From the NCBI RefSeq assembly GCF_025751575.1, contig NZ_JAOWLA010000022.1, positions 1-36,690 of the forward strand: 36,690 bases of DNA, in the 5' to 3' direction. Source of the DNA: Albidovulum sediminicola (GTDB taxonomy: Bacteria > Pseudomonadota > Alphaproteobacteria > Rhodobacterales > Rhodobacteraceae). Both the position numbers and the translations under genes were made by a program. Positions 6,415 through 36,690 of this stretch are shown in pieces. Within the stretch, counting starts at the first letter, position 1. Every line of letters begins with the position of its first letter. Below the pieces are notes generated by a model. It worked only from the letters and a program-made list of their open reading frames with translations. It did not search any database and was not told the DNA's origin.

Positions 6415-7518
<1,104 letters not shown>

Positions 7519-7519
7519 C

Positions 7520-8595
<1,076 letters not shown>

Positions 8596-8596
<1 letters not shown>

Positions 8597-9468
8597 TGGA
8601 AAAGACCGTCAACCAGAAAGCCTGGTTCCTCGTCCTGCCGGTGCTGGTCATCGTCGCCTTCTCGGCCATCATTCCGCTGATGACCGTGGTCAATTATTCG
8701 GTCAACGACACCTTCGGGAACAATGAGTTCTTCTGGGCGGGCCTCGAATGGTTCGAGGAGATGGTGACCTCGTCGCGGCTTCATGACGCGCTCGGGCGGC
8801 AGATCCTGTTTTCCGGGATCATCCTTGCCATCGAGGTGCCGCTGGGCATCTTCATTGCCCTCAACATGCCGAAGTCGGGCTTCTGGGCCAGCGCGTGCCT
8901 TGTCGCCATGGCGCTGCCGCTGCTGATCCCGTTCAACGTGGTCGGCACGATCTGGCAGATCTTCGGCCGGGTCGATATCGGCCTTCTGGGCCACGCGCTT
9001 GCCGCGCTGGGGATCGATTATAACTACACGAACGACTCTCTGGACGCCTGGATCACCGTCGTCGTGATGGATGTCTGGCATTGGACCTCGCTCGTCGCGC
9101 TTCTGGCCTATGCGGGGCTTCAGTCGATCCCGCAGGCCTATTACCAGGCCGCGAAGATCGACCAGGCAAGCCGCTGGGCGGTGTTCCGCTTCATCGAACT
9201 GCCGAAGATGAAAGGCGTGCTGCTGATCGCGATCCTCCTGCGTTTCATGGACAGCTTCATGATCTATACCGAGCCCTTCGTCGTCACCGGCGGCGGCCCG
9301 GGCAACTCCACCACCTTCCTGTCGATCGACCTTGTGAAGATGGCCGTGGGCCAGTTCGACCTCGGCCCCGCCGCCGCCTTCTCGATCATGTACTTCCTCG
9401 TCATCCTGCTCGTGTCCTGGGTCTTCTACACGGTGATGACGAACCTTGACCGCGAGGAGCAGAAGTGA
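8596..9468 (+). CDS. glpP: Glycerol ABC importer permease GlpP
   Basis: A 290-residue inner-membrane permease of the MalF/UgpA type with about six hydrophobic segments. The EAA-like cytoplasmic loop is AYYQAAKIDQASRWAVFRFI near residues 180-200, which docks on the ATPases. The C-terminal VVTGGGPGNSTTFLSIDLVK is a typical MalF-family block. The ATG overlaps the glpT TGA by one base, and the stop overlaps the next start, showing a tightly coupled operon. The glycerol role is inferred from the cluster. Confidence 0.92.
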
Positions 9469-26393: not shown

Positions 26394-27683
26394 CTACCCT
26401 CCGCTCGGCCTCGGCCCGGAGGCAAGTGCCAGAATGCGGTCGGCGGCCAGATCGGCACCCGAACGCGCCTGCATCACTGTGGCATTCGACGCCAGGCGTT
26501 CGCGCATTGCCCGGTCGCCGAACATCTCCCGGATGGTCGTGATCAACATCTCCTCGGTCCAGTCCGCCCGGTGGAGCTTTCGCCCGGTGCCGGTTTCGAC
26601 CGCCCGCGTCGCGTTGTCGTGCCCGTCCCAGCCATGAGGCAGGATCAGCGACGGCACCCCGTGGTAGAGCGCCTCGCATAGACCGCTGTTTCCCCCGTGA
26701 TGGATGAAGAGGTCCGCCATCGCCAGGACCGAGGGCTGGGGATACCAGCCATCCAGATGCACGTTGTCAGGCACGCCTCGATAAGCGTCGCGCCACGCGC
26801 CCACATGAACGATAAAACGCGCGCGCATCTTGCCGAAAACCGCGATCATTCGCTGCATTAGCGCGACATCCAGGGCGCCGAGGCTCCCGAAGGAGACATA
26901 GATCAATGGTCCCTGCCGGTTGCCGAAGCTAGGCAGGTCGAAGGGCCCCTCGTGCCGCACCGCCCCCTCAAGATGGGTGAAACGCCCGGGATCGAGCGGC
27001 CGGGCGCGGTCGTGGCGCAGGACCGAGGGCGTCAGAAGCAAGTTCAGATCCGGCGACGTCTCCAGGAACTGCCCTGGCGGCAGCGGGGCAAGGCCCGCGG
27101 CGGCGCGGAAACGGCTATACCGGCCATGCGCGGGCGCTATGGCCTTGAGATATCTCGAAATAAAGGCCGCGCGCCCTTCCCGGTCGCCGGTCGCAAGGCC
27201 CGAGCAATGGGGCGGGATCGCGTCGTCCGGGATCTCGGTTTCGGCACCCGAGACGATCCGCACCCAAGGGCAGCCCGCCCGCGCAATCGCGGGGAACATC
27301 ACTACGTTGTCGAGCACCACCGTATCGGGTCGCAGCCGCGTCAGAAGGGCCGCCAAAGGAGCCTCCGCCCCGATCGCCGTCTCCACGATCGCCTCCCAGG
27401 TGGGGGCGACATAGGTTTCGATCTGGTCGATGGGCGACAGATTGAGATGCGGCAAATGGCGGCGGCCGAACGCGCGCCAGTCCTCATCCGCGGGCAGCGG
27501 CGCGCCAAGGGGCAGGCAGTACTCCTGAAAGCCGTAATCGGCGAAGATGCCGTTGAACCCCGGAGGGCAGATGAAGACCGGCCGGGCGCCGCGCGTCCTC
27601 AGGGCGTTTGCGATGCCGACACAGGTCAGCGCCGCGCCAAATCCGGCCTCCGGGAAGAAGGCGATGACGGGCGCATCAGCCAT
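26394..27683 (-). CDS. GT1-family (UGT/MGT-like) glycosyltransferase
   Basis: A 429-residue GT-B enzyme of the macrolide/UDP-glucuronosyl transferase type. The N-terminal acceptor domain begins PVIAFFPEAGFGAALTCVGIANALRTRG. The C-terminal donor domain has IYVSFGSLGALD, HLDGWYPQPSVLAMADLFI and the donor signature HHGGNSGLCEALYHGVPSLILPHGWDGHDNA (about residues 325-355). The acceptor may be a lipid, carotenoid or other small molecule; the sequence does not say. Its ATG at 27683 overlaps the end of gntR by eight bases, so it is co-transcribed with and probably controlled by that regulator. Confidence 0.88.
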   Translation of the reverse strand: MADAPVIAFFPEAGFGAALTCVGIANALRTRGARPVFICPPGFNGIFADYGFQEYCLPLGAPLPADEDWRAFGRRHLPHLNLSPIDQIETYVAPTWEAIVETAIGAEAPLAALLTRLRPDTVVLDNVVMFPAIARAGCPWVRIVSGAETEIPDDAIPPHCSGLATGDREGRAAFISRYLKAIAPAHGRYSRFRAAAGLAPLPPGQFLETSPDLNLLLTPSVLRHDRARPLDPGRFTHLEGAVRHEGPFDLPSFGNRQGPLIYVSFGSLGALDVALMQRMIAVFGKMRARFIVHVGAWRDAYRGVPDNVHLDGWYPQPSVLAMADLFIHHGGNSGLCEALYHGVPSLILPHGWDGHDNATRAVETGTGRKLHRADWTEEMLITTIREMFGDRAMRERLASNATVMQARSGADLAADRILALASGPRPSGG

Positions 27684-28638
27684 CGCTCCCCCCAGCCATG
27701 CCCGGCTTGGGGAGCGGTGGGGCGCCCCGGCTGGCCGCCCGCGGTCGGCTATCTTGCGACAGCCGCAGATGAACGCGCAGCAGATCGGCCGCCACGTCGA
27801 AGCGGCCTGCCTCCATTTGATCAAGAATTCCAATATGTTCGAGCATTGCCTGGCGCTGCCGCACAGGGTTTACCCACCGCGTGGCGCCGGGAAGTTCGTG
27901 CATCCTCAAGTGTTGCGCCAGGGTCTCTGCGACAAAACGGTTGGCCGCGCCGCGCGCTATCAGCCCATGGAACTCGGTATCCAGCGCCTGAAAATCCTTC
28001 GGGTCCAGCCCTTCATCAGGGCGGTTCAGGAAGGCTGTCATCGCCGCGCGCGATCCGGCGGCCCGGTCCGGGTCCAGCCGGAACCCCGGGGCGGAAAGCG
28101 CCTGCGGCTCCAGCAGCAGGCGGAACTCATGACTATCGGCCTGCGACGCGGGGGCATGCGGGAGAGACGTGAAAACCCAAGCCTGCCCCGGCGCACGGAC
28201 CAGCAGACCATCTTCGGCCAGCCGGGCCACCGCCTTGGTCACGGCGGATCGCGCGCAGCCGTAGCGCCGCATCAGCGCACCCACCGATACGGAGTCATCA
28301 AGGCGCCGCGCCGCCCGGTCGCGCAGGATGCGCCCCGCGAGATCCGCGTCGCTCGCCCCCGGGGGAGGCCCGGCGAGCGGCGACGTGGGCAGGAAATCAG
28401 GCGAAAGGCGGTAGCCCGAAGCGGCCTCGTGCTGGGCAAACCCCTGATCGACCAGAAGATCGAGCGCGGCGCGCACAGGCGTGCGGGATACCTTGCAGGC
28501 CCGTGCCAGCGCCTGTTCCGGCAACCGCGCGCCCGGCCCCAGCCCACGTTCGCGGACATGGTCCAGGATCCTTTGCGCAAGCTCTCGATGGCTTGCGCGG
28601 GGGCGACCGTTACGACTCGGCGTCGCGTTCAACTCCAT
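27676..28638 (-). CDS. GntR-family regulator with two winged-helix segments and an FCD domain
   Basis: A 320-residue protein from the ATG at 28638; an upstream start at 28671 is possible. The first winged-helix segment (LAQRILDHVRERGLGPGARLPEQALARACKVSRTPVRAALDLLVDQGF) is a standard GntR reader head. A second wHTH-like segment follows (LAGRILRDRAARRLDDSVSVGALMRRYGCARSAVTKAVARLAEDGLL). The C-terminal FCD domain keeps likely metal ligands: Asp in LDTEFH, and His in EFHG, MLEHIGIL and LLRVHL. Typical FadR/FCD proteins are about 230 residues with one head, so this one is enlarged. The GT1 gene overlaps its stop. A perfect palindrome lies 54 bases upstream. The likely targets are itself and perhaps the divergent BMP operon. 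Confidence 0.87.
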   Translation of the reverse strand: MELNATPSRNGRPRASHRELAQRILDHVRERGLGPGARLPEQALARACKVSRTPVRAALDLLVDQGFAQHEAASGYRLSPDFLPTSPLAGPPPGASDADLAGRILRDRAARRLDDSVSVGALMRRYGCARSAVTKAVARLAEDGLLVRAPGQAWVFTSLPHAPASQADSHEFRLLLEPQALSAPGFRLDPDRAAGSRAAMTAFLNRPDEGLDPKDFQALDTEFHGLIARGAANRFVAETLAQHLRMHELPGATRWVNPVRQRQAMLEHIGILDQMEAGRFDVAADLLRVHLRLSQDSRPRAASRGAPPLPKPGMAGGSDG

Positions 28639-29022
28639 TCGACCTGGGCCTCGCCTCCGACGGCCGCGCAAGCATTACCGCGCCGCCACTAGGTATTTTT
28701 TCTCGAAAAAATACCATTCATTCAAGGATATTCGTAAATATGAGGCAAGTTTCAGTCCATTAATGAGAGAACGTACCAACATGAAGCATGGGCGTCGCAG
28801 CAGAACCGCAGCCGCCTCGCGCGTGATCCTGCCGCCATTTCCGGGCCGAGGCTGCGCGCCGAGCAATCTCGTAGCATCGCCATAGACCTTATGAAACGGC
28901 CTTCTTTCGTCCCCCTTGGCGCGCGCTGAGCCCCGCCTATTCTGGTCGCGTCGCCAAAGGACTTGCCCGAATCGGCAAATCTTGACCAGATAGTAAAAAA
29001 TATCAACCAACAGGGAAAAGCC
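28639..29022. other. AT-rich divergent promoter region between gntR and the BMP importer operon
   Basis: About 384 bases with no convincing gene. The part at 28690-28780 is much richer in A/T than its surroundings and holds the long palindrome (separate entry) and the inverted repeat ATATTCGTAAATAT at 28728-28741. The section 28790-28960 is GC-rich and featureless. An A-rich leader with AGGGAAAAG precedes the importer start at 29023. Confidence 0.6.
28692..28715. promoter_or_regulatory. Perfect 10-bp palindrome, candidate GntR operator
   Basis: GGTATTTTTT (28692-28701) and AAAAAATACC (28706-28715) are exact reverse complements around CTCG. The site lies 54 bases upstream of the gntR start and about 310 bases upstream of the importer gene. 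Autoregulation by the dimeric GntR protein is a natural reading. As RNA it would be a weak A/U hairpin without a following T-tract, so a terminator is unlikely. Confidence 0.6.
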
Positions 29023-30051
29023 ATGTTTCACCACAAGGGCACAAGCGCGGCCTTGTCGCGCCGCAAGGTATTGAAGGCCGGGGGCGCGCTGACCGCGACG
29101 GGTCTGATCGGGTTGCCCGCGCGGCTTCTGGCCGCCGATCCGGTCAGCGTCGCCGGTATCTACACCGTTCCGGTTGAACAGCAGTGGGTCAGCCGTATCC
29201 ACAAGGCCGCGACCGCCCAGCAAGACGCGGGCGCGGTCACCTACACCTATTCGGAGAACACCGCGAACACGGATTACGCGCGCGTCATGCGGGAATATGC
29301 CGAGGGCGGCGCCAAGCTGATCGTGGGCGAGATCTTCGGCGTCGAGGACGAGGCGCGTGAGGTCGTGGGCGACTACCCGGAGGTGGCCTTCCTCATGGGA
29401 TCGAGCTTCATGCCCGATCCGGCCTACCCGAACCTTGCCGTCTTCGACAACTACATTCAGGACGCCTCCTACCTGTCGGGGATCATCGCGGGCGCGATGT
29501 CGCAAAGCGGCAATATCGGCATGGTCGGCGGCTTCCCGATCCCCGAGGTCAACCGGCTCATGAACGCCTTCATGGCCGGCGTGCGCGAGACCCGCGCCGA
29601 CGCGAAGTTCCAGATCAGCTTCATCGGGTCGTGGTTCGATCCCCCGAAGGCCAAGGAAACCGCCTTTGCCATGATCGATGCGGGCGCCGACGTGATGTAT
29701 GCCGAACGCTTCGGCGTTTCGGACGCGGCCCAGGAACGTGGCGTGCTGGCGGTGGGCAACGTAATCGACACGCAGGCCGATTATCCCGGCACGGTCGTCG
29801 CCTCCGCGCTTTGGCATTTCGAGCCGACCTTTGACGCGGCGCTGGCGCGGGTGATCGACGGCAGCTTCGCCGCCGACAACTACGGCGTCTATTCGCAGAT
29901 GAAGGAAGGCGGCTGCTCGCTTGCCCCACTTGGCACCTTCGAGGGCAAGGTACCCGAGGCCGCGATGGCCCTGGTGGCCGAGCGTGAGGCGGCGATCAAG
30001 GATGGCAGCTTCACCGTCGCGATCGACGACAACGAACCGACCGCCGGCTGA
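29023..30051 (+). CDS. BMP-family (PnrA-like) periplasmic binding protein, Tat-exported
   Basis: A 342-residue basic-membrane-protein/PnrA-type binding protein of a nucleoside or base ABC importer. The N-terminus has a twin-arginine signal (SRRKVLKAGGALTATGLIG, about residues 12-30). The mature domain has YTYSENTANTDYARVMREYAEGG, LIVGEIFG and SYLSGIIAGAMSQSGNIGMVGGFPIPEVNRLMNAFMAG, typical of the family. An AGGGAAAAG site precedes the ATG at 29023. It starts an operon of two permeases, an ATPase and a deaminase, so a pyrimidine base or nucleoside is the likely ligand. Confidence 0.9.
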   Translation: MFHHKGTSAALSRRKVLKAGGALTATGLIGLPARLLAADPVSVAGIYTVPVEQQWVSRIHKAATAQQDAGAVTYTYSENTANTDYARVMREYAEGGAKLIVGEIFGVEDEAREVVGDYPEVAFLMGSSFMPDPAYPNLAVFDNYIQDASYLSGIIAGAMSQSGNIGMVGGFPIPEVNRLMNAFMAGVRETRADAKFQISFIGSWFDPPKAKETAFAMIDAGADVMYAERFGVSDAAQERGVLAVGNVIDTQADYPGTVVASALWHFEPTFDAALARVIDGSFAADNYGVYSQMKEGGCSLAPLGTFEGKVPEAAMALVAEREAAIKDGSFTVAIDDNEPTAG

Positions 30052-31610
30052 TGGGCCCGCAGGCGCAGGCGCGGGTTGTCCTGCGCCTGGACGGCATCAC
30101 CAAGCGCTTCGGGCCGCTGGTTGCCAACGACGCGATCACCTTCGACCTGCACGAGGGCGAGGTGATCGCGCTTCTGGGCGAAAACGGCGCCGGCAAAACG
30201 ACGCTGATGAACATCCTTTTCGGCCATTATTCGGCCGATGAAGGCCGGGTGGAGCTGTTCGGCAGCCCCCTGCCCCCGGGAAATCCGCGCGCGGCGCTGG
30301 CGGCGGGCGTCGGCATGGTGCATCAGCACTTCACGCTGGCCGACAACCTCAGCGTGATGGAGAATATCGTTCTGGGGACCGAACCGCTCTGGCGTCTTGG
30401 CCGGGGCCGCGCGGCGGCGCGTTCACGGGTCGAGGCGCTGTCGCGCGACTACGGGCTCTCGGTCCATCCAGACGCCCGCGTTGGCAGCCTGACCGTTGGC
30501 GAACGCCAGAGGGTCGAGATCCTCAAGGCGCTTTACCGGGACGCGCGCATCCTTATCCTGGACGAACCGACGGCGGTGCTGACCCCACAGGAGGCGGAGG
30601 ATCTTTTCGCAACGCTTCGCAAGGCGGTCGCGCGCGGCATGTCGGTGATCTTCATCAGCCACAAGCTGCATGAGGTGATGGCGATTTCCTCGCGCGTGCT
30701 GGTCCTGCGCCACGGCAAGCTCGTGGGCGAGGTGGCCACCGAGGCGACCGACCGCCACCAGTTGGCGACGATGATGGTGGGCACGGAGGTGGCACCGCTT
30801 GAGGTCCGCGCCCACGCGCCGGGCCCGGTGCTCATGGCCCTGAAGGGCGTTTCGACCCCGGCGCTCGGCAACGCGATCGGCCTGAGGGATATTACGCTTG
30901 AGTTGCGCGCGGGGCAGATCACCGGGCTTGCCGGCGTATCGGGCAACGGTCAGGCCGCCCTTGCCGCGCTGATCGGCGGGCTGGAGGTGCCAGAGGCCGG
31001 CGAGATGGAGATGGCGGGCGCCCCGGTCGAGGGCTGGTCGCCGCGTCGTGCCATCGACGGCGGCGTGGCGCGGATCCCGGAGGACCGCCACAAGACAGGC
31101 ACCATCGCGGACTTCTCCCTGACTGAAAACGCGATCCTCGAAAGCTACGGGGACGCGAAGTTCAGCCGCAAGGGTTGGATGAACTGGCGCGCGGCGGAAG
31201 GGTTCGCGCGCGACATCATCGCCACCTATGACGTGCGCTGCCCGGGCCCCGCCACGCGCATCCGGCTCTTGTCGGGGGGCAACATGCAGAAGCTGATCCT
31301 GGGCCGGGTGCTGGAACGGGGGCCAAGGATCATCCTCGCGAACCAGCCGGTCAGGGGCCTCGACATCGGGGCGGTTACCTATGTTCACCAGCGCCTGCTG
31401 GGCGCGCGCGACGAGGGCGCGGCGGTCCTGTTGATCTCGGAAGATCTCGACGAGGTCATGGCGCTTTCGGACGTGATCCATGTGATTTCCGAGGGCCGGC
31501 TTTCGCCTGCCTTCCCCCGGGGCGCGATGACGCCTGCGGGGCTAGGCGTCTGGATGGCCGGCCACGGGTTCGAGGGGGCCGAAGGCGGGGGGGCGGATCA
31601 TGCGGCTTGA
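30051..31610 (+). CDS. Two-domain ATPase of a nucleoside/base ABC importer
   Basis: A 519-residue fused ATPase of the YufO/NupA type. The first domain has Walker A GENGAGKT (43-50), signature LTVGERQR and Walker B ILILDEP. The second domain lacks a true Walker A lysine (VSGNGQAAL), has signature LSGGNMQK and a Walker B-like IILANQP. The asymmetry is usual in this family. The start overlaps the binding-protein stop by one base (TGATG). Confidence 0.93.
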   Translation: MGPQAQARVVLRLDGITKRFGPLVANDAITFDLHEGEVIALLGENGAGKTTLMNILFGHYSADEGRVELFGSPLPPGNPRAALAAGVGMVHQHFTLADNLSVMENIVLGTEPLWRLGRGRAAARSRVEALSRDYGLSVHPDARVGSLTVGERQRVEILKALYRDARILILDEPTAVLTPQEAEDLFATLRKAVARGMSVIFISHKLHEVMAISSRVLVLRHGKLVGEVATEATDRHQLATMMVGTEVAPLEVRAHAPGPVLMALKGVSTPALGNAIGLRDITLELRAGQITGLAGVSGNGQAALAALIGGLEVPEAGEMEMAGAPVEGWSPRRAIDGGVARIPEDRHKTGTIADFSLTENAILESYGDAKFSRKGWMNWRAAEGFARDIIATYDVRCPGPATRIRLLSGGNMQKLILGRVLERGPRIILANQPVRGLDIGAVTYVHQRLLGARDEGAAVLLISEDLDEVMALSDVIHVISEGRLSPAFPRGAMTPAGLGVWMAGHGFEGAEGGGADHAA

Positions 31611-32649
31611 ACCGATCGCCGATCCGGGTCTTGGCCGCACCTTCGGCTATCCTGCGGCGGCGCTCGCCGCCACGGTGATCTTCGCGATGACGCTGGCGCT
31701 GGTGGCGGGCGCCGAGCCGCTGGCGGTCCTCGGCCTGATGATCAAGGGCGCCGCGGGTTCGAAATTCGCGCTGCTGGAGACGCTGAACCGCGCGACACCG
31801 CTGATCTTTACCGGCCTCGCGGTCGCCGTCGCCTTTCGCGCGAAGCTTTGGAACATCGGGGCCGAGGCGCAGCTTTACGCCGGTGCCGTCGTGACCGTGT
31901 TGCTGGGCACGGGAACGCTGGCGCTGCCTGGGCCGCTCCTTCTTCCGGTGGTGGCGCTCGCCGCGGCGGCGTTCGGGGCGCTGGTTCTGCTTGGGCCCGC
32001 CACGCTGAAGCTGCGCTTCGGCGTGGATGAGGTCGTGACGACGCTGCTATTCAACTTCATCATGCTGCTTTTCGTGTCCTACCTGCTGGAAGGGCCGATG
32101 AAGGACCCCGCCGGCATGGGCTGGCCGAAGTCCGCCAAGCTGATCCCCGAGGCGCGCCTGCCCCGGATTCTGGAGGGGCTAAGGCTCCACTGGGGCTTCC
32201 TTCTGGCGCTGATCGCGGCGGTGGGTGTCTGGGTCGTCCAGACGCGCACCACGCTCGGCTATGAGATGCGCGCCGTCGGCCTGAACCCGGTCGCCGCGCG
32301 CTTCGCGGGGCTGCCGGTCGGGCGCATCATGATCAAGACGGCGCTTCTGTCGGGCGGGCTCGCCGCCCTTGCCGGCTGGTCGGAGGTCGCGGGGCTGAAA
32401 GGCAGCCTGACGCTCGATCTGAGCCCCGGCTTCGGCTACACGGGCATCATCGTCGCCATGCTGGCGCTTCTCAACCCGCTCGGGGTCGTCGTTTCCGCCC
32501 TCTTCGTCGCGGGCGTCTTCGTGGGGGCGGACTCGATGAGCCGGGCCATCGGCGTGCCCAGCTACATCGCCGACGCACTGATGGCGGCCGCGCTTCTGTT
32601 CATGGTGTTGGCGCTTCTCCTAGCGCGCGTCAGGGTCCGGAGGGGATGA
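31600..32649 (+). CDS. Nucleoside/base ABC importer permease 1
   Basis: A 349-residue permease of the YufP/BmpC type (branched-chain/ribose permease superfamily) with about ten hydrophobic segments. The diagnostic region is LNRATPLIFTGLAVAVAFRAKLWNIGAEAQLYAG, near residues 62-95. FGVDEVVTTLLFNFIM and VGLNPVAARFAGLPVGR follow. Its start overlaps the ATPase end by 11 bases and its stop overlaps the next gene by four. Confidence 0.92.
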   Translation: MRLEPIADPGLGRTFGYPAAALAATVIFAMTLALVAGAEPLAVLGLMIKGAAGSKFALLETLNRATPLIFTGLAVAVAFRAKLWNIGAEAQLYAGAVVTVLLGTGTLALPGPLLLPVVALAAAAFGALVLLGPATLKLRFGVDEVVTTLLFNFIMLLFVSYLLEGPMKDPAGMGWPKSAKLIPEARLPRILEGLRLHWGFLLALIAAVGVWVVQTRTTLGYEMRAVGLNPVAARFAGLPVGRIMIKTALLSGGLAALAGWSEVAGLKGSLTLDLSPGFGYTGIIVAMLALLNPLGVVVSALFVAGVFVGADSMSRAIGVPSYIADALMAAALLFMVLALLLARVRVRRG

Positions 32650-33593
32650 TGGAGATCTTCGACATCCTCCTGTCGGCAACCTTTTGGGCGGCGGCAATCC
32701 GTATCGCGAGCCCGCTGATCTTTGCCACGATGGGAGAGCTGATCTGCGAACGCGCGGGGGTCCTGAACCTCGGGATCGAGGGGATCATGATCGCGGGCGC
32801 CTTCACCGGCTGGTTCGCGGTCTATGCCGGAATGCCCCTGCCCGCCGGTGTCCTCATGGCGCTGCTGGTCGGAATGGCCTTCGGGCTGCTGCACGGGACG
32901 CTGACGGTGCCCTTCGGCCTGTCGCAGCATGTGGTGGGGCTTGGGGTGACGCTGCTTGCGACCTCGATGACCTATTTCACCTATCGCCTCGCCCTGCCCG
33001 AGGTCACCTCCCCACCCCGGATCGAGGCCTTTGCGGAATGGCCGGTGCCGGTCCTGTCCGAAATCCCGCTGCTCGGCCCTGCCCTTTTCGTCCAGACACC
33101 GTTGACCTACCTCGCTTTTGCGACGGTGGCAGCGGTGGCCTTCGTCCTTTACCGCACGCCCCTTGGCCTTGCCCTGCGCGCGGTGGGCGAAAACCCCGCC
33201 TCGGTCGAGGCGCAGGGGCTTTCGGTCACGGGCCTCCGGCTGGGGGCGGTGATGGCGGGGTCGGGGCTGATGGCGGTGGGCGGCGCCTTCCTGACCATGT
33301 CCGCCTTCAATTCCTTCTTCTTCGAGATGGTGAACGGACGCGGCTGGATCTGCATCGCGCTGGTCGTCTTCGGCGCCTGGAAGCCCTGGAAGTCGCTTCT
33401 GGGCGCAATCCTTTTCGCCGCCTTCGACGCGCTCCAGATCCGCCTGCAACAGACGCCGATCGGGGCGCATGTGCCCTACCAGGTCTTTCTGATGATGCCC
33501 TTCGTGCTCTCGATCTTGGCGCTGATCCTGATGTCGCGGCGCGCCGAGGTCCCGGCGGCCCTGATGGTGCCCTACAACAAGGGAGAACGCTGA
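32646..33593 (+). CDS. Nucleoside/base ABC importer permease 2
   Basis: A 315-residue permease of the YufQ type, partner of permease 1. ASPLIFATMGELICERAGVLNLGIEGIMIAGAF near the N-terminus is the family hallmark. LRAVGENPASVEAQGLSVTGLRLGAVMAGSGLMAVGGAF is the later conserved block. It is coupled to the preceding gene by an ATGA overlap; an ATG three bases on is possible. Its stop overlaps the deaminase start by one base. Confidence 0.92.
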   Translation: MMEIFDILLSATFWAAAIRIASPLIFATMGELICERAGVLNLGIEGIMIAGAFTGWFAVYAGMPLPAGVLMALLVGMAFGLLHGTLTVPFGLSQHVVGLGVTLLATSMTYFTYRLALPEVTSPPRIEAFAEWPVPVLSEIPLLGPALFVQTPLTYLAFATVAAVAFVLYRTPLGLALRAVGENPASVEAQGLSVTGLRLGAVMAGSGLMAVGGAFLTMSAFNSFFFEMVNGRGWICIALVVFGAWKPWKSLLGAILFAAFDALQIRLQQTPIGAHVPYQVFLMMPFVLSILALILMSRRAEVPAALMVPYNKGER

Positions 33594-34873
33594 TGTTCGA
33601 TCTGATCGTGAAGGGCGGCACCCTGCCCGACGGCCGCCAGGCCGATATCGGCATCCAGGGCGACCGCATCGCGGCGGTCGAGCGGTTGGAGAGCGCCGCG
33701 GCCCGCGAGGTGATCGACGCCACGGGCGACCTCGTCTCCCCTCCCTTCGTGGACCCGCATTTCCACATGGACGCGACGCTTTCCTACGGGCTGCCGCGCG
33801 TCAACGCGTCGGGCACACTGCTGGAAGGCATCGCGCTTTGGGGCGAGTTGCGCGAGACCGCCACGGTCGAGGAGATGGTCGCGCGCGCGCTGGCCTATTG
33901 CGACTGGGCCGCGGGCATGGGCCTTCTGGCGATCCGCACTCATGTGGACACAACCCCCGACCACCTGCGCGGCGTCACCGCGATGCTGGAGGTCAAGGCC
34001 CGCGTCCGCGACTACATCGACCTGCAACTGGTGGCCTTCCCGCAGGACGGGCTCTACCGGACCGCAACAGGGCGCGAGAACCTGATCCGCGCGCTCGACA
34101 TGGGCGTCGATGTCGTGGGCGGCATCCCGCATTTCGAACGCACCATGGAGGACGGGCGCGAAAGCGTGCGCGACACTGCCCGCATCGCCGCCGAACGCGG
34201 ACTGATGTTGGATCTGCACTGCGACGAAACCGACGACCCGATGAGCCGCCATGTCGAAACGCTGGCCGCAGAGGTGACGCGCCACGGCCTTGGCGCCCGC
34301 GCCGCGGGCAGCCACCTGACTTCGATGCATTCGATGGACAACTACTATGTCTCGAAATTGCTGCCGCTGATTGCGGAAAGCGGGATGTGTGCGATCCCCA
34401 ACCCCCTGATAAACATCACCCTTCAGGGCCGCCACGATACTTTCCCCAAGCGCCGCGGCCTGACACGGGTGAAGGAGATGCTGGCACAGGGCATCACCGT
34501 TGGCTGGGGACAGGACTGCGTGCTGGACCCGTGGTACTCGCTCGGAACGGCGGACATGCTGGACGTGGCCTTCATGGGCCTGCATGTCGCCCAGATGACC
34601 CACCCGGCCGAGATGGCGCGATGCTTCGAGATGGTGACGGAGGGCAACGCAAAGGTCATGAACCTGGAGGGGTATGGCCTCCGGCCGGGCGCGGCGGCCT
34701 CGTTGGTCGTCCTCGACGCCGGAAACCCGACCGAGGCGCTGCGCCTGCGTCCCGCCCGGCTGGCCGTGATCGCGAAGGGCAAGGTCATCGCCCGCACACC
34801 ACGCGGCGACCATGCCCTTTCCCTGCCCGGACGCCCCACGATCGCCAACCGACGCGCACCCGCTCGGCCCTAG
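33593..34873 (+). CDS. CodA-like amidohydrolase, predicted 5-methylcytosine/cytosine deaminase
   Basis: A 426-residue member of the cytosine deaminase branch of the amidohydrolase superfamily. Counting against E. coli CodA with a constant five-residue offset, the metal ligands are H56 and H58 (DPHFHMD), H209 (LHCDE) and D308 (GWGQD). E212 is the catalytic acid, H241 (GSHLTSMHS) is also kept, and Q151 (VAFPQDG) is the pyrimidine-contacting glutamine. C309 occupies the position of CodA Asp314, reading GQDCVLDPW instead of GHDDVFDPW. Loss of that Asp is the known mark of bacterial 5-methylcytosine deaminases, including a Rhodobacter sphaeroides enzyme. It is the last gene of the BMP importer operon and overlaps permease 2 by one base. 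Cytosine or isoguanine activity cannot be excluded. Confidence 0.88.
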   Translation: MFDLIVKGGTLPDGRQADIGIQGDRIAAVERLESAAAREVIDATGDLVSPPFVDPHFHMDATLSYGLPRVNASGTLLEGIALWGELRETATVEEMVARALAYCDWAAGMGLLAIRTHVDTTPDHLRGVTAMLEVKARVRDYIDLQLVAFPQDGLYRTATGRENLIRALDMGVDVVGGIPHFERTMEDGRESVRDTARIAAERGLMLDLHCDETDDPMSRHVETLAAEVTRHGLGARAAGSHLTSMHSMDNYYVSKLLPLIAESGMCAIPNPLINITLQGRHDTFPKRRGLTRVKEMLAQGITVGWGQDCVLDPWYSLGTADMLDVAFMGLHVAQMTHPAEMARCFEMVTEGNAKVMNLEGYGLRPGAAASLVVLDAGNPTEALRLRPARLAVIAKGKVIARTPRGDHALSLPGRPTIANRRAPARP

Positions 34874-35011: not shown

Positions 35012-35101
35012 GGAGTGGTGGCCGAGTGGTCGAAGGCACACCCCTGCTAAGGGTGCAGACGGGAAACCGTCTCGAGGGTTCGAATCCCTTCCACTCCGCC
35101 A
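35012..35101 (+). tRNA. tRNA-Ser (anticodon GCT)
   Basis: A 90-base class II tRNA. The acceptor GGAGTGG pairs with CCACTCC and the anticodon stem CACCC/GGGTG has loop CTGCTAA (anticodon GCT). The long variable arm is GACGG-GAAA-CCGTC, the T-loop is TTCGAAT, the discriminator is G and the CCA end is encoded. It marks the boundary between core operons and the accessory DNA on the right. Confidence 0.96.
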
Positions 35102-35450
35102 CTTGCACATTGCAAACCCGAGATGAGGTCCCTGACGGGGCCTTTTTCTTTATGTGCCAAAGGGGTTTGCAGGAACCATCCGCCCTTCGGAGACTGGCCG
35201 CCTTCGCGAGATCGGTCTCTGAACGCCCACCGTCTCTTTCCACCCGCCCCGCGCTCTGGGCGAGACGGTTTCAAAATTCCCATATGTTTCAGTGAACTCA
35301 CGGGATCGCACTGCGCCCGTGTTTTGCTGGTTCCGGCTTGTTTCGATGCAGACGGAGACGCGACACGGGCGGCGTGGTCGTTGGTATGTCTTGGGAGTCT
35401 TGCGCGAAGTCTCTGATGACAAACGCAGTTTCCGCCCTTAGCCTGGCGTG
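35102..35450. other. Intergenic region after tRNA-Ser
   Basis: About 350 bases. It holds the tRNA terminator (separate entry) and then no convincing gene. Frames on both strands are open for about 90 residues, but they lack a ribosome site and read as low-complexity. No copy of the tRNA 3' end was seen further right in the window, so an attachment site cannot be shown. Confidence 0.5.
35127..35152 (+). terminator. Terminator after tRNA-Ser
   Basis: GGTCCC (35127-35132), loop TGAC, GGGGCC (35137-35142; one G-T pair), then TTTTTCTTT. It lies 25 bases beyond the tRNA CCA end. Confidence 0.8.
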
Positions 35451-36287
35451 ATGTCAAACGGGGCCTGGACCGATAAAGAGAACGACCTGATCGTCGCGGA
35501 TTACTTCGCGATGCTGGCCGACGACGTCTGTGGTCGCCCCTACAACAAGGCCGAGCACCGGCGCGGGCTTCTGCCGCTGTTGAATGATCGGTCCGAGGGA
35601 TCAGTCGAGTTCAAGCACCAGAACATCAGCGCCGTGCTGAAGGGGCTGGGTGAGGACTGGATCCCGGGCTACAAGCCTGCCTTCAATTTCCAGATGACAC
35701 TGGTGGACGCCGTGGCGCGATGGCTGGCGCTGAACCCGGCATGGCTCGGTCGCCATTCGGGTACCGGAGCGCCGACTGGCCTCGCGGAGGCACGCCCGAT
35801 CTGGATCGGGCCGCCGCCCACGTTGTCGAACCAACCGCCGCCGCAGGAGCTGGAGCAGATGCTGCACATCGCCCGCAAATTCGATGTCGCAGCGCGAGAC
35901 GAGCGAAACCGCGCCCTCGGCCGGGCCGGTGAGGAACGCGTGCTGGCGCACGAACGTGCAGCCCTGAAATCAGCGGGCCGCGACGATCTTGCGCGCAAGG
36001 TCAGGTGGGTGTCGGAGGAGGATGGCGATGGCGCCGGCTACGATATCGCCAGCTTCGCGCCGGACGGCCGTCCGCGCCTGATCGAGGTGAAGACGACGAA
36101 TGGCTGGGAGCGTACCCCTTTCCACATCAGCCGCAACGAGCTGGCCGTGGCCGAGGAGCGGCGCTCGGAATGGTCCCTGTTCCGGCTCTGGAACTTCGCG
36201 CGCGAGCCGAAGGCGTTCGAATTGCATCCGCCGCTGGACGCGCATGTCTCTCTGACCGCGACGTCCTATCAGGCGAGTTTTCACTAG
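35451..36287 (+). CDS. DUF3883 (PD-(D/E)xK nuclease-like) domain protein
   Basis: A 278-residue protein from the ATG at 35451; a GTG lies three bases earlier. The N-terminal half (WTDKENDLIVADYFAMLADD...KHQNISAVLKGLGEDWIPGYKP) is a conserved but unassigned module. The C-terminal third holds GYDIASFAPDGRPRLIEVKTT, the D...ExK arrangement of the DUF3883 domain, related to restriction-endonuclease folds. NGWERTPFHISRNELAVAEE follows, the usual DUF3883 extension. Such proteins are common in defence or mobile regions. It lies just past a tRNA gene and just before a broken DNA methyltransferase. Whether it cleaves DNA is inferred. Confidence 0.8.
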   Translation: MSNGAWTDKENDLIVADYFAMLADDVCGRPYNKAEHRRGLLPLLNDRSEGSVEFKHQNISAVLKGLGEDWIPGYKPAFNFQMTLVDAVARWLALNPAWLGRHSGTGAPTGLAEARPIWIGPPPTLSNQPPPQELEQMLHIARKFDVAARDERNRALGRAGEERVLAHERAALKSAGRDDLARKVRWVSEEDGDGAGYDIASFAPDGRPRLIEVKTTNGWERTPFHISRNELAVAEERRSEWSLFRLWNFAREPKAFELHPPLDAHVSLTATSYQASFH

Positions 36288-36317
36288 TTGCGCTAACGTG
36301 CTTTTCGTCGGGTAACG

Positions 36318-36563
36318 ATGGGTCAGCAAGAGCCTTCGGCCTTCCTGAAGGTGATGGAGAAAGTGGATTCACATCTCGCACTCGACTGGCTAATAGGAGT
36401 AATGCAGAACATATCCCACGCCGTCATGGCGCAACGCCATGAACCAAAAGACAGCCCCGATGACTTCCCAACGCCACCGTGGGCAACCCGCGCGCTGTTG
36501 CAGCACGTGATCCGCGACCCTAATCTTTCCCGTCTGACCTGCCTTGAGCCGGCATGTGGCAGA
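36318..36563 (+). pseudogene. DNA methyltransferase, N-terminal fragment cut by an IS
   Basis: From the ATG at 36318 the frame reads MGQQEPSAFLKVMEKVDSHL and continues through DSPDDFPTPPWATRALLQHV to CLEPACG. That last block is the start of the SAM-binding motif I of phage-type N6 methyltransferases (usual form CLEPACGAGHMA). Directly after the Gly the family resemblance stops and IS-end sequence begins (TGTCC at 36564). The remaining open frame to the window edge is accidental read-through into the IS. The rest of the gene, if present, lies beyond the IS outside this window. An ATG at 36402 is an alternative start. Confidence 0.7.
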
Positions 36564-36690
36564 TGTCCGTCGTCAGAAGATTTGGGACACGAGTGGCTGA
36601 TCTGGAACGGAGGGCCTGGCTCGTTTGGGTTTCAGTTTATGCTGCGGTCTGGCGATGCAGCAAGCGGCGCTTCTCGATGGTTTTGGCCTT
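36564..36690 (-). mobile_element. IS3-family insertion sequence, one end (rest beyond window)
   Basis: The sequence from TGTCCGTCGTCAGAAG (36564) onward has the TG terminus expected of IS3-type elements. It carries the 3' end of a minus-strand transposase and interrupts the methyltransferase. The exact boundary could be off by the few bases of target duplication, which cannot be checked without the other end. Confidence 0.6.
36637..36690 (-). CDS. IS3-type (DDE integrase-core) transposase, C-terminal end
   Basis: The minus strand read from the window edge gives KAKTIEKRRLLHRQTAA and then a TAA at 36639-36637. This is the usual C-terminal tail of rve-domain IS3-family transposases in Rhodobacteraceae (recollection of the tail wording, not a search). 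The catalytic DDE domain lies outside the window. Confidence 0.6.
   Translation of the reverse strand, partial: KAKTIEKRRLLHRQTAA

Follow-up and report, generated by a model that had tools for sequence, protein, structure and literature searches.

In Escherichia coli the cytosine deaminase CodA is encoded beside CodB, an NCS1 permease for cytosine uptake. Three bacterial 5-methylcytosine deaminases, Kpn00632, Rsp0341 and NCgl0075, were reportedly described by Hitchcock et al. in 2014. Among ATP-binding cassette (ABC) transporters, the PnrA-type importers, which bind nucleosides, have the same architecture as the system described here, and their binding proteins belong to the same family as its own. 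The present subject is a five-gene operon at positions 29023-34873 of the forward strand of a stretch of 36,690 nucleotides from Albidovulum sediminicola (contig NZ_JAOWLA010000022.1), the whole of which is called the window. As in E. coli, a deaminase lies beside genes for uptake. The operon probably serves to scavenge free bases of the cytosine class, with a deaminase that is expected to tolerate a 5-methyl group.

The five genes follow one another with overlaps of 1, 11, 4 and 1 bases, and the overlapping importer and deaminase genes described in the earlier note are confirmed. The first gene (29023-30051) encodes a periplasmic binding protein of the BMP/PnrA type (PF02608, Bmp, 115 bits), and the second (30051-31610) a double ABC ATPase of 519 residues with two ABC_tran stretches (155 bits). 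Two permeases of 349 and 315 residues follow (31600-32649 and 32646-33593; BPD_transp_2, 134 and 115 bits), and the last gene (33593-34873) encodes a cytosine-type deaminase of 426 residues from the amidohydrolase superfamily (PRK07572, NCBIfam NF005748; Amidohydro_3). A Bmp domain, a double ATPase and two BPD_transp_2 permeases in one operon identify the first four genes as a BMP/PnrA-type ABC importer. The arrangement is not due to chance, because 107 other loci, drawn from four samples (27, 17, 58 and 5), repeat the complete five-gene set.

The deaminase is a member of the NCBIfam family PRK07572, “cytosine deaminase” (733 bits, cut-off 438). Against the CodA family, PRK09230, it scores 411 bits, under the cut-off of 483, and Asp314 of CodA is also absent. 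Its matches in the PDB include CodA (1k6w, E 1.8e-103) and the Klebsiella enzyme (4r7w, E 2.7e-97, 330 bits). The alignment with 1k6w is free of gaps from about residue 38 to residue 385, with an offset of +5, and pairs H56, H58, Q151, H209, E212, H241, D308, C309 and W314 with H61, H63, Q156, H214, E217, H246, D313, D314 and W319 of CodA, residues which we take to have catalytic, metal-binding or substrate-binding roles. Part of these roles is restated in PMC6186785. The catalytic set is thus shared with CodA at a constant offset, as the earlier note had said, and Cys309 (codon TGC, 34517-34519) stands where CodA has Asp314. Across 103 aligned deaminases the equivalents of H61, H63, Q156, H214, E217, H246, D313 and W319 are identical in every row, and the column of Asp314 holds Cys in 67, Ser in 19 and Asp in 17.

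The CodA homologues without Asp314 tested by Hitchcock and colleagues in 2014, Rsp0341 and NCgl0075 among them, are said to accept 5-methylcytosine. PMC6186785, which numbers the aspartate 315, repeats this rule second-hand; it describes CodA as essentially unable to use 5-methylcytosine, reports that an Asp to Ala change brings activity on this base, and gives Ser as the corresponding residue of the Klebsiella enzyme, Kpn00632. The deaminases of this class, Kpn00632 (PDB 4r7w, 4r85 and 4r88) included, have the CodA fold and catalytic residues, and Asp314 is not conserved in them. In the window enzyme Cys309 lines up with the Ala, Ser and Gly of the CodA chains 1r9y, 1r9z and 1r9x. As a CodA homologue with a residue other than Asp at 314, it carries the sequence mark of the Hitchcock class of 5-methylcytosine deaminases. 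With Cys in the place of the Asp that shuts 5-methylcytosine out of CodA, the enzyme is expected to use cytosine and 5-methylcytosine alike.

The earlier note had held that homologues lacking the aspartate deaminate 5-methylcytosine and that the transporter brings in this base. The first statement agrees with the CodA mutant and the Klebsiella enzyme (PMC6186785); Kpn00632, which the note cites, has Ser at this position, however, and to judge from its 330-bit score against the window enzyme it presumably lies on another branch than the Cys type. The second is not supported as stated: loss of Asp314 widens specificity, permitting 5-methylcytosine without excluding cytosine. Cys is found in nearly the whole subfamily, with Ser in a few PRK07572 members (L051, L066, L074 and L075), and the two surveys described below gave matches in seven further genomes of the window's taxonomic family, all of the Cys type. 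More distant relatives with 28-39% identity (L080, L082, L083, L085, L088 and L090-L094) have Asn at the Asp314 position, in GQDN, GADN or TNN motifs; no importer genes were found near them.

The N-terminal SRRKVL of the binding protein is presumably a twin-arginine-like signal, and all 31 aligned rows have R13 and R14. An AlphaFold2 model with a mean predicted local distance difference test (pLDDT) of 89.7 has AtzT (6pi5) as its best Foldseek match (E 2.2e-24, template modelling score 0.76). AtzT and 3s99, about 30% identical to the window protein, are the closest proteins in both sequence and fold, ahead of the nucleoside binders, and the PnrA-type proteins rank lower in structure. The fold and the aromatic sandwich are those of free-base BMP proteins of the AtzT/3s99 type. 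The pocket consists of W55, F105, E175, W204, Y226 and E228, in which the equivalents of Phe98 and Glu165 of AtzT are kept. The place of W55 holds Trp in all 108 aligned BMP proteins (107 from operons and one from locus L263, which is treated below), and that of W204 holds Trp or Phe in all of them (96 Trp and 11 Phe among the 107). E175 and E228 are invariant in the 107 operon proteins.

According to PMC6834077, the dissociation constants (KD) of AtzT are 0.11 µM for guanine, 0.36 µM for ammeline and 2.5 µM for adenine, and pyrimidines are bound weakly (cytosine 800 µM, thymine 620 µM). Tyr45 and Trp194 enclose the ligand, which is bonded to Ser97, the N of Phe98, Glu165, Asn218 and Asn220, and adenine has been modelled in the site of 3s99 (PMC6834077). 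In the operon proteins the place of Ser97 is occupied by Val, Ala or Ile in 100 of 107 and by Ser in 7, and Tyr or Phe at 226 together with Glu at 228 takes the place of Asn218 and Asn220; near E228 two alignments differ by a shift of two residues, and one of them puts the Glu on the Asn218 column. The hydrogen-bonding set for purines (Ser97; Asn218 or His; Asn220 or Asp) is absent from the window protein, which has Ile104, Tyr226 and Glu228. A pocket so altered makes the purines bound by AtzT and 3s99 less likely ligands and, we infer, would fit a cytosine-class base.

The same genome has another BMP gene (L193, contig C7, 8963-10063, reverse strand), near the xanthine dehydrogenase genes xdhA, xdhB and xdhC. 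At all nine sites compared, the residues of its product agree with those of 3s99. It is probably the binding protein of a purine-base importer, and since its pocket matches that of 3s99, purine uptake probably proceeds through this separate system.

The association of importer and deaminase was followed in two surveys, in which importer genes were counted by tblastn over about 8-9 kb on each side where the contig permits. In the class survey, 51 of 385 Alphaproteobacteria genomes had a deaminase match at E 1e-60, 40 of them above the PRK07572 cut-off; in the phylum survey, which shares some genomes with the first, these numbers were 100 and 80 of 398. Stretches were taken from 56 of the 58 match rows of the class survey, excluding the window's own row and a further row within L078, and from 80 of the 102 rows of the phylum survey, leaving out 8 that were already covered or the window and 14 of at most 310 bits. 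The best deaminase of each stretch was retained at an identity of at least 39%, a threshold below which 15 class-survey stretches fell. At the Cys-type loci of the class survey the importer was complete in 27, partial in 1 and absent in 7, and none of the 6 Ser-type loci had it. In the phylum survey the Cys-type counts were 17, 4 and 18, and importer genes stood at 1 of 20 Ser-type and 0 of 21 Asp-type loci. When the surveys are pooled, importer genes accompany 49 of 74 Cys-type, 1 of 26 Ser-type and none of 21 Asp-type deaminases (1 of 47 for Ser and Asp together), and the complete operon, which is thus not rare, is present at 44 of the 74. Contig ends account for some of the partial and empty cases. 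Named relatives numbered at least 590; the best 80, which over-represent the kin of the window because they were ranked by likeness to it, were all of the Cys type, with the importer complete in 58, partial in 1 and absent in 21. The operon was also present at five of five plasmid loci, which had been chosen from deaminase or BMP matches.

A quick LG+G4 tree of 103 deaminases (121 survey rows thinned to 102, and the window), which gave long-branch warnings, tempers these numbers. Residue 309 needs 4 changes on the tree. Within the Cys rows alone the importer needs 16, a count inflated by missing neighbouring contig sequence. The comparison of Cys with the rest amounts to about two independent contrasts, and the Fisher p of 1e-13 for the importer table of Cys against Ser plus Asp is for this reason set aside and is no statistical proof of a link between residue and importer. 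The survey proposed in the earlier note, of co-occurrence against residue 309, thus shows the expected pattern with the weight of some two contrasts. A different aspect of the tree argues for a working unit: the importer genes have been gained or lost often, yet stand beside the deaminase, even downstream of it at L220, L231 and L232.

Locus L263 was considered as a second origin of the link in the Ser type and rejected, since it has a cytosine permease of its own (PRK11017, 584.5 bits), a PucR-type regulator upstream, and BMP genes in the opposite orientation. At many Mesorhizobium loci, L137, L139, L141 and L144 among them, the stretch has the Cys-type deaminase and no importer genes, and nearby is a gene of a cluster whose annotated member is an EamA-type transporter. 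The genes that recur beside importer-less loci, with representatives annotated as dihydroxy-acid dehydratase, an EamA protein, an ABC exporter, a flavin adenine dinucleotide (FAD) oxidoreductase with GCV_T, and release factor 3, look like ordinary shared Mesorhizobium gene order.

Deaminases that lack the importer are often accompanied by a different kind of gene. In 25 of the 46 Ser- and Asp-type loci without the importer (15 of 25 Ser, 10 of 21 Asp), the same strand carries upstream a gene belonging to one cluster, the single annotated member of which is an NCS1 cytosine/purine permease. The Klebsiella precedent, with its Ser, thus belongs to a type that differs from the Cys clade of the window in gene context as well as in residue. 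The window's own genome has no NCS1 protein (PF02133) at E 0.001. Among Cys-type genomes, NCS1 proteins were present in 13 of 45 with importer genes and in 16 of 24 without (Fisher p 0.004, not corrected for kinship), a comparison that took 45 of the 49 and 24 of the 25 genomes concerned, one of the 45 (G725) having the ATPase and permeases and no BMP match. It is a rough test, because NCS1 proteins also carry other compounds.

The reductive pyrimidine pathway degrades thymine as well as uracil. Genes elsewhere in the genome encode a dihydropyrimidine dehydrogenase subunit of the PreA type (731.6 bits against a cut-off of 335) and, adjoining a gene for a hydantoinase/carbamoylase-family amidase, a dihydropyrimidinase (604.8 bits against a cut-off of 393). 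With PreA and dihydropyrimidinase the organism could degrade uracil or thymine.

From these features we infer the ligand, the reaction and the use of the base as a nitrogen source. In the periplasm the BMP protein would capture the base by stacking it between two aromatic side chains, and the double ATPase and two permeases would move it into the cell. The metal-dependent deaminase would then strip the exocyclic amino group and release ammonia, taking cytosine to uracil and 5-methylcytosine to thymine, products that could enter the reductive pathway. In this form the earlier proposal of an operon for import and deamination is retained, on the strength of the Asp-less enzyme, a BMP protein nearest to the free-base branch with an altered pocket, and the genes for thymine and uracil breakdown.

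Several observations weigh against a scavenging unit for cytosine-class bases. Importer genes are absent from the stretch read at 25 of the 74 Cys-type loci; 13 genomes with importer genes also encode an NCS1 protein, and the NCS1 contrast ignores kinship. Because AtzT itself binds cytosine weakly (KD 800 µM), the choice of ligand rests on the altered pocket, the alignment of which is ambiguous at E228. Some of the operons also contain an amidase gene for which a plain cytosine route has no need. Within the cytosine class, plain cytosine is at least as likely an everyday substrate as 5-methylcytosine would be. That the system is instead a dedicated route for 5-methylcytosine or another C5-modified cytosine from degraded methylated DNA, with a BMP protein preferring the methylated base and an enzyme making thymine, is rather unlikely. 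The gain of 5-methylcytosine activity by the CodA Asp to Ala mutant and the Ser of the tested Klebsiella enzyme (PMC6186785) speak for it, as do the importer genes at 49 of 74 Cys-type against 0 of 21 Asp-type loci, and a reductive pathway suited to thymine. Loss of the Asp broadens rather than switches specificity, however; the residue-importer link comes down to about two contrasts, and the Ser-type enzymes, competent for 5-methylcytosine by the Klebsiella precedent, have no importer at 25 of 26 loci. Moreover, no genome that was read has a Cys-type enzyme together with a CodA-like Asp-type one, among the few candidates scored per genome and with the second rows of G646 and G738 excluded, and the Cys enzyme may simply serve as the cytosine deaminase of these lineages. 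The 21 Asp-type genomes of the phylum survey had one match each, and all CodA-like Asp rows came from outside the class, although two distant rows within it (L084 and L089, below 39% identity) also have Asp; this lack of overlap proves little, because the split also follows taxonomy. It is equally doubtful that high-affinity ABC uptake dedicated to C5-modified cytosines, coupled to the Cys-type deaminase, would be spread over the Alphaproteobacteria and some Betaproteobacteria as a means of using the methylated DNA of other organisms.

An ordinary operon for cytosine uptake and deamination, in which Cys309 is neutral and 5-methylcytosine irrelevant in nature, is likewise unlikely. It would agree with the occurrence of the operon in lineages where CodA-like Asp-type enzymes were not met, and with a genome that lacks an NCS1 permease and has no second PRK07572-family match at E 1e-60. 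It accounts less well for the retention of Cys at 309 in nearly the whole subfamily, with few Ser rows, and for the published rule, reported second-hand in PMC6186785, that tested Asp-less enzymes accept 5-methylcytosine. Another amino-heterocycle, such as isoguanine, isocytosine, an s-triazine (ammeline) or an N-alkylated base, is an improbable substrate; on this proposal the rhizobial amidase would act on a later product. AtzC-type enzymes are the next PDB relatives of the deaminase, and AtzT, a near relative of the BMP protein, binds ammeline at 0.36 µM (PMC6834077). Nitrifier genomes are reported in PMC12625717 to have BMP-type transporter genes with biuret/triuret genes and a GatA-like amidohydrolase, and these clusters, together with the amidase found within the operon at nine loci, leave room for such a substrate. 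Against it, the metal and substrate residues of CodA are kept, the AtzC types match at E about 1e-41 compared with 1e-103 for CodA, and the amidase is found in nine loci that were read and is absent from the window. Least probable by far is an importer for nucleosides or purines with the deaminase as a passenger. Many solved BMP proteins are titled nucleoside or purine binders, but the gene overlaps and conserved order, the separate purine-type BMP gene beside xanthine dehydrogenase, and a pocket consistently unlike the purine set all point away from it. BMP and deaminase identities are also correlated over the 107 loci (Spearman 0.71), a value that kinship alone could yield.

The nine loci with an amidase-signature gene inside the operon (L095, L097, L099, L177, L198-L200, L231 and L232) are mostly rhizobial where named. 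The gene lies between those for the BMP protein and the ATPase, as at L095:6930-8390, L097:10912-12327 and L099:7054-8466. Two copies that were scanned matched general amidase-signature families alone, below the cut-offs, and the nearest PDB chain to a third is 6-aminohexanoate-cyclic-dimer hydrolase. Genes are also inserted between permease and deaminase, and three of four scanned at L212 and L218 resemble GNAT acetyltransferases; the other inserted genes (L204, L210, L212 and L213) had no matches and offered no clue to the substrate.

Divergent from the operon, on the reverse strand at 27676-28671, is a gene for a GntR/FCD-type protein of 331 residues from a TTG start (Pfam GntR 66 bits, FCD 47 bits), a possible regulator of the operon. 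The connection is weak, because no match of at least 70 bits to this gene occurs in the 56 loci of the Alphaproteobacteria survey. Scans for sigma-70 promoters, terminators and repeats found nothing upstream of the operon. Beyond it, at 35012-36690, a tRNA-Ser(GCT) is followed by a gene whose product has a NO VEIN C-terminal domain (35448-36287), and then by an open frame where the contig ends; an island inserted at the tRNA could have its edge here. Further upstream, at 6415-9468, the window has another ABC transporter gene set, which encodes a permease and a pair of ATPases, of which one has an OB domain of the MalK type.

Deaminases without Asp314 and BMP importers for bases are already known; searches of open-access papers, judged by title, abstract or selected passages, listed none that describes the stable operon, its pocket signature or a bacterial importer for 5-methylcytosine. 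Uptake of 5-methylcytosine as such is not new, because a yeast fcy2 mutant reportedly takes up neither cytosine nor 5-methylcytosine (PMC12299217). Should a cytosine-class base prove to be the ligand, the operon would encode the pyrimidine equivalent of the known purine importers, a BMP-type ABC system for free bases that in many bacteria would take the place of an NCS1 permease. If 5-methylcytosine is preferred, it would be a recycling route for a common modified DNA base, the fate of which after DNA breakdown is poorly known. The pocket signature would in either case improve the annotation of many genes now labelled “BMP family” and “amidohydrolase”.

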